In this document: piece after piece, positions 41,257 through 47,467 of the stretch
Layout of the letters: each line of letters opens with the position of its first letter
Numbering within the stretch: the stretch's first letter is position 1
Source of the DNA: a bacterium HR28
GTDB lineage: Bacteria > Chloroflexota > Chloroflexia > Thermomicrobiales > Thermomicrobiaceae
Direction: 5' to 3'
DNA: 64,000 nucleotides
Assembly (NCBI GenBank): GCA_002898255.1
Contig: BEIE01000002.1
Span: 186,001-250,000 of the forward strand
Made by a program: the position numbers and the translations under genes
The notes under the pieces: model-generated
Database searches by the model: none
What the model saw: only the letters and a program-made list of their open reading frames with translations
Told to the model about the DNA's origin: nothing

Positions 41257-41652
41257 ATGCTGATTTGGCGCTATGGAATTTTGGCGACGCTCGCCGCTGC
41301 GATCCTCAACGCTGCACTCTGGGGGCTCGCTCGGGCGCTAGGAGTCTCACTCCAGGTTCAGCCACCAGGCCAACCGGTGGCAGTAGTGGGACTACCGCAA
41401 GTTATCCTCCTGACCGTTATCCCTTTGCTCGTTGGCACCGCCTTCTACACGCTGTTACGGCGTTGGACACGCCGTCCCTTCCTGACTTTCCTGATCCTTG
41501 CGCTCCTGATCTTTGTCATTTTGCTTATCCCGCCCTTTGCTGCAACGGAGCGCGCTGGCACGCGCTTTGTGCTCATCCTCATGCACCTGGTTGCAACCAC
41601 TGCCCTCTTAGCAGGGCTTTATCGCGCTGAGGTTCGCCGCGCACGGCCGTAA
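41257..41652 (+). CDS. Four-helix membrane protein, DUF6069-like
   Basis: The 131-residue product has four hydrophobic helices (residues about 5-25, 44-65, 75-95 and 103-123) with few polar residues between them. The pattern ILNAALWGLARALG at the first helix and VGTAFYTLLRRWTRRP at the second matches small DUF6069-type membrane proteins. Function unknown. The ATG at 41257 has an AAGGAGAGGGAG site. A hairpin lies 9 nt after the stop. Confidence 0.65.
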   Translation: MLIWRYGILATLAAAILNAALWGLARALGVSLQVQPPGQPVAVVGLPQVILLTVIPLLVGTAFYTLLRRWTRRPFLTFLILALLIFVILLIPPFAATERAGTRFVLILMHLVATTALLAGLYRAEVRRARP

Positions 41653-41660
41653 ACAGCGAA

Positions 41661-41680
41661 GGGGGCGATACGTCGCCCCC
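41661..41680. terminator. Hairpin after the DUF6069-like gene
   Basis: GGGGGCGA (41661-41668) and TCGCCCCC (41673-41680) form a perfect 8-bp stem closed by a TACG loop. No T-run follows, so termination efficiency is uncertain. It shares its core with the repeat at 13106 and may be a dispersed element. Confidence 0.55.
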
Positions 41681-41762
41681 GACAGAACTCCCTTCAGCAG
41701 AGCCATGCGGCGCGCAGAATCTATCACAAGCCCTTACCACAAAGAAGGTGCTGATCCGTTCC

Positions 41763-42167
41763 TCACAGTGTGATCACCTGATCCGGAGGATTCTGCGCCA
41801 GCGCCGCGTAGAGATCGGGGAAGCAGCCGACCTGAACACCCTCGACCGTGTTCACCGGCTGAATCTCAGCCGGCTCTCGCCGCCCAAGCCCGGTCACCGG
41901 ATCGCACCAGCGCGGCTGCCCCTGCGCGAGGTTCCGTTCCAGCGCGCACATGTCGCACATCATGAGCAGAATCCCCTGCTCCTTTGCGATGCGCGCCAGC
42001 CGTTCGCCGATCGGGTCGCCCTTCCGCAGGACAAAGACGTTGTCATCGAAAAAGAACATGCCGACGACCTCAACCCCATGCGTCCCCGCCTCAAGTTGTG
42101 GCAGGATCATCTGGCCCAGCTTGTAGCTTGCCGCCCGTGGTGTTGCAAACACATAGGCCACGCGCAT
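41763..42167 (-). CDS. DsrE-like protein
   Basis: The 134-residue cytosolic protein shows the DsrE/F alpha/beta pattern: VAYVFATPRAASYKLGQMILP at the start, VEVVGMFFFDDNVFVL as the second strand, GILLMMCDMCALERNL with two cysteines, and GCFPDLYAAL near the end. DsrE-type proteins carry sulfur or persulfide groups, and the CDMC pair could serve that, but the pathway is unknown. It converges with the DUF6069-like gene; its own promoter lies in the next gap. Confidence 0.65.
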   Translation of the reverse strand: MRVAYVFATPRAASYKLGQMILPQLEAGTHGVEVVGMFFFDDNVFVLRKGDPIGERLARIAKEQGILLMMCDMCALERNLAQGQPRWCDPVTGLGRREPAEIQPVNTVEGVQVGCFPDLYAALAQNPPDQVITL

Positions 42168-42563
42168 CTTTGTCCCTTCCTCTCCTCGACGGTATCAGAT
42201 CCCTTGACCAACAGCCTTCCACCCCACGCCCTTCACTCCACCATAGTGATCCTCCGTTCCATCATGCCCCGACTCATCGGGGTGAAGTCCCTCTACCCCT
42301 TCGAACGGAAGTCATGATACTTCGTCTCATTTATGTATGCCGCTGCTGTACCCCACTTGGGACTCCCAGAGCCTGAGCAGCAGCCTGGGGCGGACCGTTC
42401 AGCCCTGGAGAGAAGTCACGGTAAGGCGAAGCCTCGAACACCTTCGAGGCACGCAGTGCCTCGCACATCCTGACTCGTAGAGAATCAGATCACACTATTG
42501 ATCCCTACAGAACGGACTCTACCTTCAGAACAAACCAGACGGATGTCATCGCCTCCTGCACCG
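42168..42563. other. Intergenic region between znuB and the DsrE-like gene
   Basis: No gene is supported. The stretch contains one strong hairpin (42431-42450) that may end znu transcription and otherwise shows nothing recognised. Confidence 0.45.
42431..42450 (-). terminator. Hairpin downstream of znuB
   Basis: GCCTCGAA (42431-42438) and TTCGAGGC (42443-42450) form a perfect 8-bp stem with loop CACC, about 110 nt past the znuB stop. There is no T-run on either side, so its role is uncertain. Confidence 0.4.
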
Positions 42564-43421
42564 CTACCGGTACGCCGCCATTAGCCGTCGCCAGGCACCG
42601 CGCCCCCGTACCAGCGCTGCCACCAGTACAAACAGCACCGTCGCCACGAGCACGATAGCGCCTCCCGAGGGGACACTCGCATAGTAGCTGAGATAGAATC
42701 CCACCAGCGCTGCCAATGCCCCAAAGAGCACTGCGAGGATCATCATCGCTGGCAGCCGCCGCGCTACCAACGCTGCCGTCGCCGCGGGCGTCACCAGCAT
42801 CGCCAGCACCAGGACCACGCCCACCGCCTGTACCGAAACCACGACTGTCACCGAGAGCAAGAGCAACAAGAGCAGCTGCAGTGCCCCCACCGGGAGCCCT
42901 GCTGCTTCGGCCACCACAGGATCGAAGTGCGCAAAGAGGAGCTCCTTGTAGAGTGCCACAATCGTCCCCACCACAAGGAGCCCCGCAAGGGCAATCGCCC
43001 AGAGATCACGTGCGCGCACCGCCAAGATATCGCCGAACACGTAACTGAAGAGATCAACCGTGTATGTCCGGATGCCGATCGCCATCAGCACCACGCCAAG
43101 GGCAAAGACCCCGCTAAACACGATGCCGATCGCCGTATCCGTGCTCAAGCCCACCCGCCGCGTTACCCAGCCGATCCCCAGCCCAGCCGCGATCGCCGCC
43201 GCCAGCGCACCGATGTAGAAACTGAATCCAGCCAGGAAGGCCACAACGATCCCGGTAAAGGCGACGTGCGCAAGCGCATCCCCGATAAACGCCAACCCTT
43301 TGAGCACCACGTAGCTCCCAACCATGGCGCAGATCGCCCCAACGAGGACAGCGGCGACGAGCGCCCGTAGGAGAAAGCCATACCGCAACGGTTCGATAAG
43401 CAATTCAACAGCTCCGTTCAT
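42564..43421 (-). CDS. znuB: Zinc/manganese ABC transporter permease
   Basis: This is the membrane channel of a zinc-type metal importer. The 285-residue protein has eight to nine membrane helices and the ABC-3 family motifs: VLKGLAFIGDALAHVAFTGI early on, GLSTDTAIGIVFSGVFALGV in the middle, and VQAVGVVLVLAMLVTPAATA near the ATPase-coupling loop. The ATG at 43421 is chosen because GAGG lies about 6 nt upstream. It overlaps znuC by 17 nt. Zinc rather than manganese is favoured by the neighbouring Fur-family regulator and the His-rich binding protein. Confidence 0.92.
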   Translation of the reverse strand: MNGAVELLIEPLRYGFLLRALVAAVLVGAICAMVGSYVVLKGLAFIGDALAHVAFTGIVVAFLAGFSFYIGALAAAIAAGLGIGWVTRRVGLSTDTAIGIVFSGVFALGVVLMAIGIRTYTVDLFSYVFGDILAVRARDLWAIALAGLLVVGTIVALYKELLFAHFDPVVAEAAGLPVGALQLLLLLLLSVTVVVSVQAVGVVLVLAMLVTPAATAALVARRLPAMMILAVLFGALAALVGFYLSYYASVPSGGAIVLVATVLFVLVAALVRGRGAWRRLMAAYR

Positions 43422-44229
43422 CCCCATCCTCGCCCTCGACCACGATAACCCGATCACCGTACCGCAGGAGCAAAAGGTGAGACTGGAAAGTGCGGTGGAG
43501 CAGTGCCTCGGTGAACACCTCCTGCGGCGGACCGTAGGCAATCACCTCGCGGTTCAGGAGCAGCACCCGGTCGAACCGTTGCGCGACACACGAGAGATCA
43601 TGCGTTGCAACCAGCGCCGTCTTTCCTTGCCGGCAGAGACGCTCGAGAAGCTCAAAGACAAAGTGCTGAGTCGGTGCATCGACCCCACTCACCGGTTCAT
43701 CGAGAAGAAATAACTCTGGCTCCTGCGCAAGCGCACGCGCCAAAAACACGCGCTGCCGTTGACCACCGGAGAGTTCGGCGATGAGCCGATCTCGCTGGTC
43801 AACCAATCCCACCTGCTCCAGCGCCCAGAGCGCCAGCTCCCGATCAGCCTTGCCCGGGCGCCGGAACAGCCCGAGTCGCGGATAGCGTCCCATCAGTGCG
43901 ACGTCGAACACCGTGACGGGAAAGTCCCAGTCGATCGTCTCCCGCTGCGGGATGTAGGCAATGTCGGGGTTCGGCCGTGCCGGCTGTCCCTCGACCAACA
44001 CTCTCCCTTCCCAGGGAGGGAGGAGCCCGAGGAGCGCACGGAAGAGCGTTGACTTACCACTGCCATTTGGTCCGAGGACCCCAACCAGCGCGCCACGCTC
44101 GACCGCGAACCGCACGTTCCGAAGTACTGGCTCGCCGCGCCGGTAACCCGTCGTCAACCCTTCGACCTGGATTACCGGCATCGTCGTCGCTCGCGCCGCT
44201 CGCTCAACCGCGACGACTCCGCTGCCCAT
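43405..44229 (-). CDS. znuC: Zinc/manganese ABC transporter ATPase
   Basis: The 274-residue ATPase has Walker A GPNGSGKST, the Q-loop in YIPQRETIDWDFPVTV (the 'IDWDFP' stretch is typical of metal-ion importers), signature LSGGQRQR, Walker B LFLLDEP and the H-loop His in VATHDLSC. The ATG at 44229 shares its A with the znuA stop (TGATG), so the two are translationally coupled. Confidence 0.93.
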   Translation of the reverse strand: MGSGVVAVERAARATTMPVIQVEGLTTGYRRGEPVLRNVRFAVERGALVGVLGPNGSGKSTLFRALLGLLPPWEGRVLVEGQPARPNPDIAYIPQRETIDWDFPVTVFDVALMGRYPRLGLFRRPGKADRELALWALEQVGLVDQRDRLIAELSGGQRQRVFLARALAQEPELFLLDEPVSGVDAPTQHFVFELLERLCRQGKTALVATHDLSCVAQRFDRVLLLNREVIAYGPPQEVFTEALLHRTFQSHLLLLRYGDRVIVVEGEDGDERSC

Positions 44230-45197
44230 CACCCACGCAACCCTTCGACCACGTTGGTCACGTTCTGCCGCATCATCCCGAGGTAGTCCATCCCCGCTGG
44301 CGCTGCATCACTATAGAGCTCCAACACCCGCACTCCGGCTTCTTGCGCAATCGTCTGCGCCAACTTTGGATTAAACTGCGGTTCGACAAAGATCGCTGGT
44401 ACCCCCTCGGCCCGAATCCGCGCCACCAGTTGCGCCACCTCCTGTGGTGAGGGCTCGCGGCCCGGGCTCAGCACGACAACGCCGACAAGCTCTAGCCCAT
44501 AGTGTGCCGCGAAGTACGGGAATGCGTCGTGGAAGGTCACCAACTTGCGCCGCTCGGGCGGAATCGTTGCAATCTGCTCCTTTGCCCAGGCATCAAAGTT
44601 GCGGATCTCGTCAATGTAGCGTGCGGCGTTGGCCCGATAAATCTCGGCATGGGCTGGGTCAGCCTCCACGAGCCCTGCCGTGATGCGCTCGATGTAGATC
44701 ACCGCAAAGTCGGGATCAAGCCAAAAGTGCGGATTGATGCCATGCTCCTGGTCATGCTCCGGCTCGGGTGTCCCCAGCACGTGCTCTTCCTCAACAGCTA
44801 CGCCCTCCGGCGGCTTTAGGCCCTCAGAAAGGACGATGACCTTCGCCTTGCTCCCAACCGCCTCCAGTTGGCGTTCCATCCAGGGATCGAGCTCGCCGCC
44901 GTTGTACACCACTACCTGTGCCTCGGCAAGCGTGGCAACATCTCGCGGTGTCGGCTGGTAGGTATGCGGGTCAGCTCCTGCCGGCATCACCGCGCTCACC
45001 TCGACGAGTTCCCCGCCCACCGCCTTGACCATACTGGCAAAGATCGGCAGACTCGCCACCACAACCAAGCGGCTCGCTGCCACTCCCGTCACAGCCTCTC
45101 CACCCACCGGCGACTGCACCGTCGGCCGTGGAGCCCGCCCACAAGCTGCCGCGACGAGCCCGAGCAGCACGATGATCGTCACGAGCCATCGCCGCAT
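44229..45197 (-). CDS. znuA: Zinc-binding lipoprotein of ABC importer (ZnuA/TroA family)
   Basis: The 322-residue metal-binding protein has a lipoprotein signal (VLLGLVAAAC) and the cluster A-1 fold: SLPIFASMVKAVGG, MPAGADPHTYQPTPRDVATL with the first metal His, NPHFWLDPDFA with the second, TFHDAFPYFAAHYGL with the third, and a final acidic ligand in ELYSDAAP. A loop with several His and Glu residues (EEEHVLGTPEPEHDQEHG) is the hallmark of zinc-type members. The ATG at 45197 follows GGGAGGAG; a promoter and Fur-family operator lie upstream. Confidence 0.93.
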   Translation of the reverse strand: MRRWLVTIIVLLGLVAAACGRAPRPTVQSPVGGEAVTGVAASRLVVVASLPIFASMVKAVGGELVEVSAVMPAGADPHTYQPTPRDVATLAEAQVVVYNGGELDPWMERQLEAVGSKAKVIVLSEGLKPPEGVAVEEEHVLGTPEPEHDQEHGINPHFWLDPDFAVIYIERITAGLVEADPAHAEIYRANAARYIDEIRNFDAWAKEQIATIPPERRKLVTFHDAFPYFAAHYGLELVGVVVLSPGREPSPQEVAQLVARIRAEGVPAIFVEPQFNPKLAQTIAQEAGVRVLELYSDAAPAGMDYLGMMRQNVTNVVEGLRG

Positions 45198-45219
45198 CGT
45201 CTCCTCCCTGTTGGCTGAA

Positions 45220-45234
45220 TGATACGCCGTCTCA
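45220..45234. promoter_or_regulatory. Second Fur/Zur-like box in the znuA leader
   Basis: TGATACG-C-CGTCTCA has the 7-1-7 inverted-repeat form with one mismatched pair and shares TGATAC with the upstream box. Centre-to-centre distance from that box is 60 nt. It lies about 23 nt before the znuA start codon. Confidence 0.45.
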
Positions 45235-45277
45235 CTCATTAGCGACGTGACCACCCCACACCGACCACATGCTCCTT

Positions 45278-45306
45278 ATGATACTCAGTATCAACTAATC
45301 AGACAA
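45278..45306 (-). promoter_or_regulatory. znuA promoter overlapped by a Fur/Zur-like operator
   Basis: Read on the minus strand, TTGTCT (45306-45301) and TATCAT (45283-45278) are spaced exactly 17 nt. The perfect 15-bp palindrome TGATACT-C-AGTATCA (45279-45293) covers the -10 box and matches the 7-1-7 pattern of Fur-family operators. Zinc-dependent repression by the neighbouring regulator is the natural reading. Confidence 0.65.
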
Positions 45307-45628
45307 CGGAATCGCGTGGGGACACTGCGTTTCTCTCCTGCCCCGAGGGCTACTGGAGGCGACTGCAAATCGCTGAGTTATGGCCGTCGACTCACCTGCA
45401 CGCCCCTCTTCACCCTTACCCTGTTGGATTCCTGTCCCGTCCACCCACCTCGACCCACCACGCCGACTCGCCCACAAGAACGCACGAACGCGCGTGCGAC
45501 AGCGCCCCAAGGCACTTACAGGTCCTTCCAGGCCAAGGGATCGACGCAGCATCCCGCTCTCCCTCGGGAGTACCTCCGTGGCGCGATTCATCTTTTTGCG
45601 CATCGCTGTTCTCAGCGGGGGAACAATC
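45307..45628. other. Gap between the zur-like gene and the znu promoter
   Basis: About 320 nt with no credible gene; a 102-codon minus-strand frame has no domain pattern. The znu operon thus has its own promoter rather than being read from the regulator gene. Confidence 0.45.
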
Positions 45629-46072
45629 CTAGCGGCTCACCGCCATCGTCTCTCCTTGACACGCCTGGCAGAGGCCGCTCAGCTCCAGCCAGTGATCGAG
45701 GATTCGGAATCGCGTCTGATCAGCAATGGAGGCGAGGATCGGCTCCAAGTTGCACCCAGAGAATGCGGCGACCCGGCCACAGCGGACACAGACAACATGA
45801 TGGCGGTGCCCATCACTCGACACAACGTACCGGTGTGTTCCGGATGGATGATGCACCCGCTCGACGACGCCCAGCTCAGCCAGAAGGTCAAGCGTACGAA
45901 ACACCGTGGCCCGCCCGATCGTCGGCTGCACGCGGCGCAGCGCTCGGAAGACGTCCTCGGCCGAGAACGGTTCGCACTGTTCCAAAACGAACTCCACAAT
46001 CGCGCGTCGCGGCCCGGTCACCCGACAGCCACGTTCGTGCATCGTCTCGAGAATCGCCTCTGCCGTTCGCAT
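45629..46072 (-). CDS. zur: Fur family regulator, probably zinc-responsive (Zur)
   Basis: The 147-residue repressor has a winged-helix DNA-binding half (residues 1-80; RVTGPRRAIVEFVLEQCEPFSAEDVF and TIGRATVFRTLDLLAELGVV, read in parts). The dimer/metal half has HRHH (89-92) and the structural zinc cysteines Cys95, Cys98, Cys135 and Cys138. Fur and Zur cannot be separated by sequence alone. Its position directly upstream of znuACB, with two 7-1-7 boxes between them, makes Zur the best name. The ATG at 46072 follows GTGAGGTCGG. Confidence 0.85.
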   Translation of the reverse strand: MRTAEAILETMHERGCRVTGPRRAIVEFVLEQCEPFSAEDVFRALRRVQPTIGRATVFRTLDLLAELGVVERVHHPSGTHRYVVSSDGHRHHVVCVRCGRVAAFSGCNLEPILASIADQTRFRILDHWLELSGLCQACQGETMAVSR

Positions 46073-46771
46073 GACCGACCTCACCGGCTTCAGTATACCT
46101 GTCCCATCGACCATGTCCTCGCATTGCTCGTGTCAACGAGCGGCACGCCGCTCACAGCGCTTACTGCTCGCCACCTGTCCCGGCACGAGCAACAACAAAC
46201 ATATTGCCGCTCCGCGCTGCCCGTTATTGTACGCCGCACCTGCCGGTACGGCATACCGACCATCTCTCCGGCGCTACGAACGCAGTCAGGACTCTCCTCC
46301 TCAGCGTTCTGAAATCGAATCTGAAACCGAAATCAAAGCCACCTCTTTATCAGTCCTCGCCCCCACCATCGATATTGTTGTCTTCTTCTGAATCGGACGC
46401 ATGGTCAGGCACGGGCGCGTAGCGAGGTGAGCATACTGCCCCATTGCAATCTCCCAGCAAGACAACTCTCCAGAATAGAAAACGGTCGGCCCGGGGGTAG
46501 GCAGATTAAGAATGACTGGACATTTGTTACCTAACTTCTCTCGTGTATCGTTTCTCACCGAAACACCAGTGACGAGCGAAAGCTGTTAATTGTTCATCAC
46601 CCCAGCCTCTTTCCCCTGGCGCACGAAACCGGGTGATCGCCACCTACGCGGGGTCAGCACCTGCCCGATCGCCTACTCGCACCGACCCAGGACAGATCGT
46701 CACCCCCTTCCCGGTCGGCAACAAGCCCGCTATCCTCGAGAGCGGACGGATAGCGGACAAGGGGGCGCGCC
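46073..46771. other. Intergenic region with an AT-richer pocket
   Basis: About 700 nt without a supported gene. Positions roughly 46300-46600 are clearly less GC-rich than the surroundings, which may reflect promoter DNA or old insertion. On the minus strand TATACT near 46092 could be the -10 box of the zur-like gene. Confidence 0.4.
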
Positions 46772-47467
46772 ATGCATATCGAACTCGGGCGGCCAGTGAT
46801 GAGTCGCGACGGCAAACGGATCGGTACAGTGGACCAGCTGGTGCTCGACCCCAATACCCGCGAGGTGCAAGCGATCATCGTGCACCGCGGCTGGCTGCTC
46901 AGCGAAGACCGGATCGTCGACCGCGAGCTGATCGACGCGGTTGCACCAGACGGAACAGTGTGGCTTACCCTCGACGCCGAGCGAACCGGAGAACTCCCGC
47001 TTTTCGTTGAGGCCGAGTTCGTGCGCCTCACTGCGGAAGAAGCCGCCAGTCTCCCCTATGTCTGGCCCAGTGGTGGCGGGCTTGGCCCTATCCCGCTATT
47101 GTGGGGCACCCCGGCCCGTGAACCCGTCGTTCCCGACCTCGGTGCTGCACCCTACGAGCCCGGCGGCGGCACTCTGCCGAGCTCGGTTCCCCCTATCACT
47201 CCACCCGTTGAGGTCGAGAGTAATCTCCCTCGAGAGGCTGTTCGCATCGACCGCGGAACTGCTGTCATCGCTAGCGACGGCGAACGGCTTGGCAAGGTCG
47301 AGCATGTGCACCTCAACGAGGATGGCGAAATCGTGAGTCTTGCCGTTGACCCGGGACTCTTTGGAGGTGAGCACCTGCATATCCCAGCCGAATGGATCGC
47401 CGAGATCACCGAGGACGCCGTCCGCCTCTCCGTCGACGCGGCCACGGCCCGTCGCAGGAAGCGATGA
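46772..47467 (+). CDS. Two-domain PRC-barrel protein
   Basis: The 231-residue cytosolic protein holds two PRC-barrel domains: residues about 5-85 (GRPVMSRDGKRIGTVDQLVLDPNTREVQAIIVHRGWL in parts) and about 148-225 (GTAVIASDGERLGKVEHVHLNEDGEIVSLAVDPG in parts). A Pro/Gly-rich linker joins them. PRC barrels bind RNA or protein partners; single-gene copies like this one are often stress-related but no function is assigned. The ATG follows AAGGGGGCG. A hairpin lies just after the stop. Confidence 0.85.
   Translation: MHIELGRPVMSRDGKRIGTVDQLVLDPNTREVQAIIVHRGWLLSEDRIVDRELIDAVAPDGTVWLTLDAERTGELPLFVEAEFVRLTAEEAASLPYVWPSGGGLGPIPLLWGTPAREPVVPDLGAAPYEPGGGTLPSSVPPITPPVEVESNLPREAVRIDRGTAVIASDGERLGKVEHVHLNEDGEIVSLAVDPGLFGGEHLHIPAEWIAEITEDAVRLSVDAATARRRKR

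Follow-up and report, generated by a model that had tools for sequence, protein, structure and literature searches.

The window (the whole stretch of DNA that was analysed, 64,000 nucleotides) carries on its minus strand a Fur-family regulator gene followed by znuA, an ABC ATPase gene, an ABC-3 permease gene and dsrE, which we read as a zur-znuACB-dsrE operon (Table 1). The sequence-only reading that preceded this work had placed a Fur-family gene upstream of two palindromic boxes, and the PF01475 match agrees with it (96.3 bits, cut-off 23.1, which puts the protein in the Fur superfamily). A promoter-like site at 46119..46092 (minus strand) shares sequence with the opening codons of zur as annotated, so that the gene possibly starts at the ATG at 46072, 42 nt further in. 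Three terminator-like hairpins were found in the scanned stretch as compared with 0.3 expected, one of them between zur and the znuA promoter, while the other two fall within zur. The same five-gene order was read in six other genomes (G009, G012, G015, G017, G019 and G020), and in G014 and G018 a contig end carries the last part of zur and then the other four genes. The order is not universal, since in G006 dsrE and zur lie about 4.9 kb apart on one contig, with znuA on other contigs. The window belongs to a Thermomicrobium genome, a genus assignment based on the named relatives L115 and L118; the nearest of the named relatives is Thermomicrobium sp. CFH 73360, with 95% identity in the regulator. 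NCBI places Thermomicrobium in the phylum Thermomicrobiota; 'class' and 'phylum' in the genome counts below follow the taxonomy of the search tool.

Table 1. Coordinates of the genes and control elements of the zur-znuACB-dsrE locus in the window
Feature	Position	Strand	Evidence and remarks
Fur-family regulator gene (Zur-type), first gene of the cluster	45629..46114	-	PF01475, E 1.8e-27; coordinates from the longest start
Terminator-like hairpin, between zur and the znuA promoter	45481..45498	-	consensus scan alone
-35 hexamer TTGTCT	45301..45306	-	17 nt from the -10; TTG here in 5/6 Thermomicrobium promoters
Box 1, TGATACTGAGTATCA on the minus strand, perfect 7-1-7 palindrome	45279..45293	-	palindrome search; 12/15 columns invariant
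-10 hexamer TATCAT	45278..45283	-	5/6 bases within box 1
Box 2, TGAGACGGCGTATCA, one arm mismatch, in the znuA leader	45220..45234	-	13/15 columns invariant, 6/6 genomes
znuA, zinc-type substrate-binding protein	44229..45197	-	PF01297, E 1.2e-89; third metal ligand His
ABC transporter ATPase (znuC-like)	43405..44232	-	PF00005, E 4.4e-30
ABC-3 permease (znuB-like)	42564..43541	-	PF00950, E 2.2e-72
Box 3, TGAGACGAAGTATCA	42315..42329	-	starts 162 nt before the dsrE ATG
dsrE, SaoD/DsrE family protein, fifth gene of the cluster	41763..42167	-	NF040913, 211 bits, cut-off 152

The perfect palindrome TGATACTCAGTATCA that had been described upstream of znuA was recovered with both of its 7-bp arms matching, and an independent scan gave the minus-strand promoter TTGTCT-17-TATCAT (45306..45278, 9 of 12 matches), confirming that box 1 covers the -10 of a 17-nt-spaced promoter. 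In the scanned region (45100-46200) this promoter and that of zur were the two promoter-like sites found, as compared with a mean of 0.1 in shuffled sequences. The second 7-1-7 box with one mismatch is also present in the leader, 59 bp from box 1 (start to start) and 22 bases before the znuA ATG. With transcription predicted to start at about 45271, box 2 would lie at about +38 to +52 of the transcript, and because it lies inside this putative transcript a dimer bound to it would act on elongation. Box 3 had not been included in the sequence-only reading. At up to three mismatches the window held five box matches as compared with 0.35 expected, a number reached in none of 100 shuffles. A search of Rfam over 41500-46800 gave no match at the gathering score, and folding of the stretch between the boxes in six Thermomicrobium genomes gave z-scores from -1.8 to +0.5 with no U tract; we therefore claim neither a riboswitch nor a terminator for the leader in the window.

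Across 21 genomes of the family, the pattern TGAKACNNNGTMTCA occurred at 28 sites as compared with one for the reversed control, 23 of them preceding a znuA-type gene, 3 preceding dsrE and 2 lying elsewhere. By the exact pattern, 17 of the 21 genomes had a box before a znuA-type gene, including G001, although its znuA match is only 31% identical, and G012 added one with a single mismatch. No site of the exact pattern was found in G002, G008 or G016. A close orthologue of the regulator was missing from G008 and G016, the latter being 54% complete and without a znuA match; in G002 the sole znuA match is 31% identical, and its locus was read without a site at up to one mismatch. At the extra exact-pattern sites G014:C174 (near a contig end) and G020:C1:568753, inspection by eye of the DNA read revealed no zinc gene.

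In the six Thermomicrobium genomes with the locus (its own and five others), two separate conserved boxes were found in the promoter and leader, box 1 keeping 12 and box 2 keeping 13 of its 15 columns. The flanks have diverged: 1 of the 22 columns preceding each box is kept, and of the 23 that begin at the second base downstream of the box, none is kept for box 1 and 1 for box 2. The possibility that the boxes are chance palindromes in an AT-richer intergenic stretch, which has nothing in its favour beyond the shortness of the motif, is refuted by the 28 sites against a single reversed control in 21 genomes and by this conservation amid diverged flanks, and we regard its probability as negligible. 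Box 2 reads TGAGACRRCGTATCAT in all six genomes, so that its broken symmetry is itself conserved, and its distance from an in-frame ATG remains at 16-22 bases, whereas the spacing to box 1 varies (59, 57, 50, 50, 49 and 59 bp). None of 12 single-box promoters of other genera carried a second box at up to two mismatches within 150 nt; at three mismatches, five of the 12 gained one match (one of which overlaps the box), as compared with about 0.28 expected per 300 nt. On the promoters compared, box 2 is a genus-level addition in Thermomicrobium.

We took the -10 to consist of the final five bases of the box and the one base that follows. By this convention TTG stood at exactly 17 nt before box 1 in five of the six Thermomicrobium promoters and was missing in G019; among the five single-box promoters of genera g5 and g6 it stood at 17 nt in four and at 18 nt in one, and all seven COG0523 promoters of genus g10 had TTGACA at 17 nt. 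A T directly follows the box in all 18 Thermomicrobium, g5/g6 and g10 promoters, and in the six Thermomicrobium genomes this holds after both box 1 and box 2. The seven loci read in genera g2-g4 (L048, L049 and L068-L072) had TTGAC 18-19 nt before the box, an A after it and no clean -10, so that the covering of the promoter by the box is not universal and the promoter is overlapped differently there.

The identity of the metal was approached from both the regulator and the transporter. The regulator scored below the NCBIfam cut-offs for the Zur equivalog NF008646 (56.9 of 167 bits) and for Fur (106 of 220 bits). We take NF008646 to be an enterobacterial model, so that its low score weakens the name Zur and not the function. 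Like Escherichia coli Zur and Mycobacterium tuberculosis FurB, the protein belongs to the Fur family, has two CxxC pairs and a His-rich sensor stretch, and is encoded beside znu; unlike in classical Zur, the Cys at the C76 position of FurB is missing, and an invariant Cys in a GCN motif is present instead. This sensor position, which we presume to be C76 in FurB numbering and equate with C84 of Bacillus subtilis Zur, is Ser in the window protein, and the 16 orthologues in the alignment have Ser, Val, Ala or Arg there (the alignment was made without G014, which is split, and G018, which is partial), while the GCN Cys is invariant in all 16. A C84S mutant of B. subtilis Zur still represses a target (PMC5007448). 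The description of the region as a Zur control region thus holds by context, as palindromic boxes precede zinc uptake genes here, and COG0523 and znu genes are given as standard Zur targets in a review (PMC6103462); it does not hold by protein model. Since the protein lies under the Zur and Fur cut-offs and lacks the usual sensor Cys, we name it Zur-type by context.

In ZnuA, the His of the TFHDAF motif aligned to the Glu of MntA and YfeA (SEGAF), and the structure 5w56, which we take to be the zinc protein AztC, also has His at this position (HNAF). If the aligned ZnuA, MntA and YfeA residues have the usual metal-ligand roles, the third ligand is His, as in zinc-type cluster A-I substrate-binding proteins, as opposed to Glu in the manganese and iron types, and in the alignment this His-type ligand points to zinc. 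We considered whether the regulator might be a Fur-family manganese or iron sensor and the transporter a manganese or iron importer. The best NCBIfam matches of the binding protein and ATPase were Deinococcus manganese proteins (below cut-off), the best PDB match of the binding protein was a manganese protein, and the usual Zur Cys is absent from the regulator; however, the third ligand is not Glu, and class-wide the boxes precede COG0523 GTPases, a known type of Zur target, so that a manganese or iron system seems to us quite improbable. The regulator protein itself does not prove the metal, and zinc is the presumed co-repressor.

Before dsrE, the Thermomicrobium genomes G000, G014 and G019 have an exact box, G015 and G017 one with one mismatch, and G018 none. 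The gap between the permease and dsrE matches was 189-416 nt in all five genomes with a dsrE box; where it was 34-122 nt (G018, G012, G013, G009 and G020), none of the five had a box at up to two mismatches. The dsrE box was also absent in G004, G005, G006, G007, G010 and G011. The NF040913 family was found in 33 of the 301 genomes of the phylum sample, and among the 30 dsrE loci read, which include the window and L136-L161, znu lay within about 1.5 kb in 5 (4 of them Thermomicrobium) and COG0523 in 11, with neither in 14. Because of these 14 loci, we rejected the view of dsrE as strictly a zinc gene. Cys71, Cys74 and Cys115 were present in all 34 DsrE homologues aligned. The structure model of DsrE had a mean pLDDT of 50, too poor for a structure search, and 'SaoD' in the literature returned unrelated uses among the matches listed.

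In its own genome, the motif had 28 sites at up to three mismatches as compared with 13 in the reversed control. When these 28 were ranked by a weight matrix built from 24 family sites, with boxes 1 and 2 included and box 3 not, the top three were box 1, box 3 and box 2. The next-best sites after those of the locus were C8:5322 and C7:29136, which both lie within long open reading frames, and C1:1292824, where no zinc gene was recognised by eye. The own genome has one PF02492 (COG0523) match (69.8 bits, a 259-aa frame).

Among 158 genomes of the class, the pattern TGATACNNNGTATCA occurred at 81 sites as compared with 4 in the reversed control, 13 of the 81 within the family. Outside the family, neighbours were called by tblastn with six queries and by eye, and a COG0523 GTPase, znu or Fur-family gene lay beside the box at 9 of the 29 loci read. 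No such gene was seen at the other 20, so that the motif may also serve other Fur-family regulators, or chance may account for some of the sites. Separately, a FAD-like GGGIHG protein was seen at three loci (L170, 1018-1534; L171, 881-1014; L140, 1-1042), a possible further member of the regulon. Its gene and a Fur-family gene are divergent, the intervening DNA carrying two boxes at a distance of 24 bp; in L140 the gene comes after dsrE.

Pairs of boxes were also found in genus g10. In its seven COG0523-dsrE promoters the promoter box has one mismatch to TGAKACNNNGTMTCA in six and is exact in one, and a second box (one mismatch in six, two in one) follows 57-64 bp on, a few bases before the start codon. 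A GC hairpin and a U-rich tract lie between the boxes in six of these seven promoters and also in G333 of another genus; they were read at L140, L142, L143, L146, L147, L149 (upstream of COG0523) and L173, and were absent at L148. The terminator scan reported the hairpin for L147, the one of these loci to which it was applied. By hand count the tract ends 12-14 nt before box 2. Support from folding was uneven, the z-scores of the stretch between the boxes ranging from -0.3 to -3.3 in these six g10 promoters and reaching -5.3 in G333. These pairs might form a two-stage switch that recurs in the class, in which box 1 would block initiation and the leader box would act on elongation. The position of the hairpin is roughly that expected of a polymerase halted by repressor on box 2, and a weak terminator might become strong once metal-loaded regulator occupies the leader box; in Thermomicrobium the same leader operator would then be used without a terminator, and DsrE, with its three invariant Cys, might be a new part of the zinc-starvation response. 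We regard this switch as a speculative proposal with a low chance of being correct.

For the window, the best reading is a Zur-type repressor with a promoter-blocking box 1 and an independent leader operator at box 2, to which we give a probability of about three in four. The Fur-family sensor, probably made from its own promoter, would bind the TGAKACNNNGTMTCA boxes when zinc is plentiful. With box 1 bound, the -10 (TATCAT) would be covered and RNA polymerase excluded, shutting off znuACB. Box 2, which lies about 40-50 nt into the predicted transcript, shortly before the ribosome site of znuA, would be a second operator, occupied on its own, and would make repression tighter, most likely by halting polymerases that escaped at box 1, and box 3 would give the distal dsrE its own control where this gene lies far behind the operon.

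The sequence-only reading had suggested that two boxes six helical turns apart could allow cooperative binding or block elongation. The phasing was not borne out, as 59 bp amounts to 5.6 turns of 10.5 bp each; cooperativity as argued there fails with these non-integral turns and with spacings of 49-59 bp. A Zur-type control region, with box 1 over the -10 and a second, constrained box in the leader, is supported. We nevertheless evaluated whether dimers at the two boxes bind cooperatively or the DNA between them is looped, either of which would make helical phase matter. The spacings in Thermomicrobium do group around one phase (with 10.5 bp to the turn, R is 0.78 and P is about 0.02 when compared with uniform spacings of 45-66, or about 0.014 for four lineages), and spacings of 59 and of 49-50 differ by about one turn. 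However, the phase they share, 0.43-0.76 of a turn, is not integral and lies about half a turn away, the genomes are few and related, the phase test was made post hoc, and the COG0523 pairs of g10 (57-64 bp) show no phase (P 0.63). We consider cooperative binding unlikely, and less likely than an independent second operator.

Box 2 might also cover the -10 of a second znuA promoter near the start codon, each box guarding one promoter. The T after box 2 in all six genomes gives TATCAT, which resembles a -10, the asymmetry of box 2 always spares its downstream half, and in G019, where no -35 could be recognised upstream of box 1, TTGGCG lies 18 nt upstream of the box 2 TATCAT, so that this species may have shifted its promoter to box 2. 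In the other five genomes, however, no TTG hexamer was found at 16-18 nt before box 2, the best hexamers of all six average 2.7 matches to TTGACA as compared with 2.3 in random sequence, and the promoter scan gave only the box 1 and zur promoters. A second promoter thus seems to us improbable, and the independent leader operator is the reading carried forward.

Arrangements of this kind have precedents. Two-box Zur promoters have been published for B. subtilis yciC and Streptomyces coelicolor znuA (PMC6103462), and as in these, the Zur-type boxes here overlap the core promoter of zinc-starvation genes. In the review that describes them the two boxes most likely act independently, the downstream one being proposed as a backup for stringency (PMC6103462), which is similar to the role we propose for box 2. 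In those promoters one box lies over the -35 and one over the -10 (PMC6103462), whereas here the second lies in the leader, 40-50 nt downstream of the predicted start, the box has the form TGATAC-N3-GTATCA and the second one is a genus-level addition. As in Paracoccus denitrificans, zur lies beside znuA with two motifs between them, but there the two genes are divergent (PMC5387054), while here they run in the same direction and no box was found before zur. A block of elongation was raised in a B. subtilis study, which describes a box-dependent effect independent of zur (PMC4324032).

In a survey of COG0523 proteins, the Zur sites named are mainly those of Firmicutes, proteobacteria and cyanobacteria, and the main text does not contain 'chloroflex' or 'thermomicrobi' (PMC2770081). 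Among the literature matches listed, we found no description of a Zur box in Chloroflexi, Chloroflexus or Thermomicrobium, nor any that places DsrE in a zinc regulon; the search covered open papers, so that a prior description in subscription papers or regulon databases is possible.

Taken together, the control region is real, conserved, Zur-type and ordinary in kind, a largely known type of switch, and its unusual parts, the genus-specific leader box and the extra dsrE target, are modestly interesting. The motif is a testable candidate for the zinc regulon of a bacterial class without a described Zur box in the literature found, and an uncharacterised DsrE/SaoD-type family is linked with zinc genes time and again (16 of the 30 loci read). 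Natural promoters with and without the leader operator would allow a test of whether Fur-family repressors block elongation.
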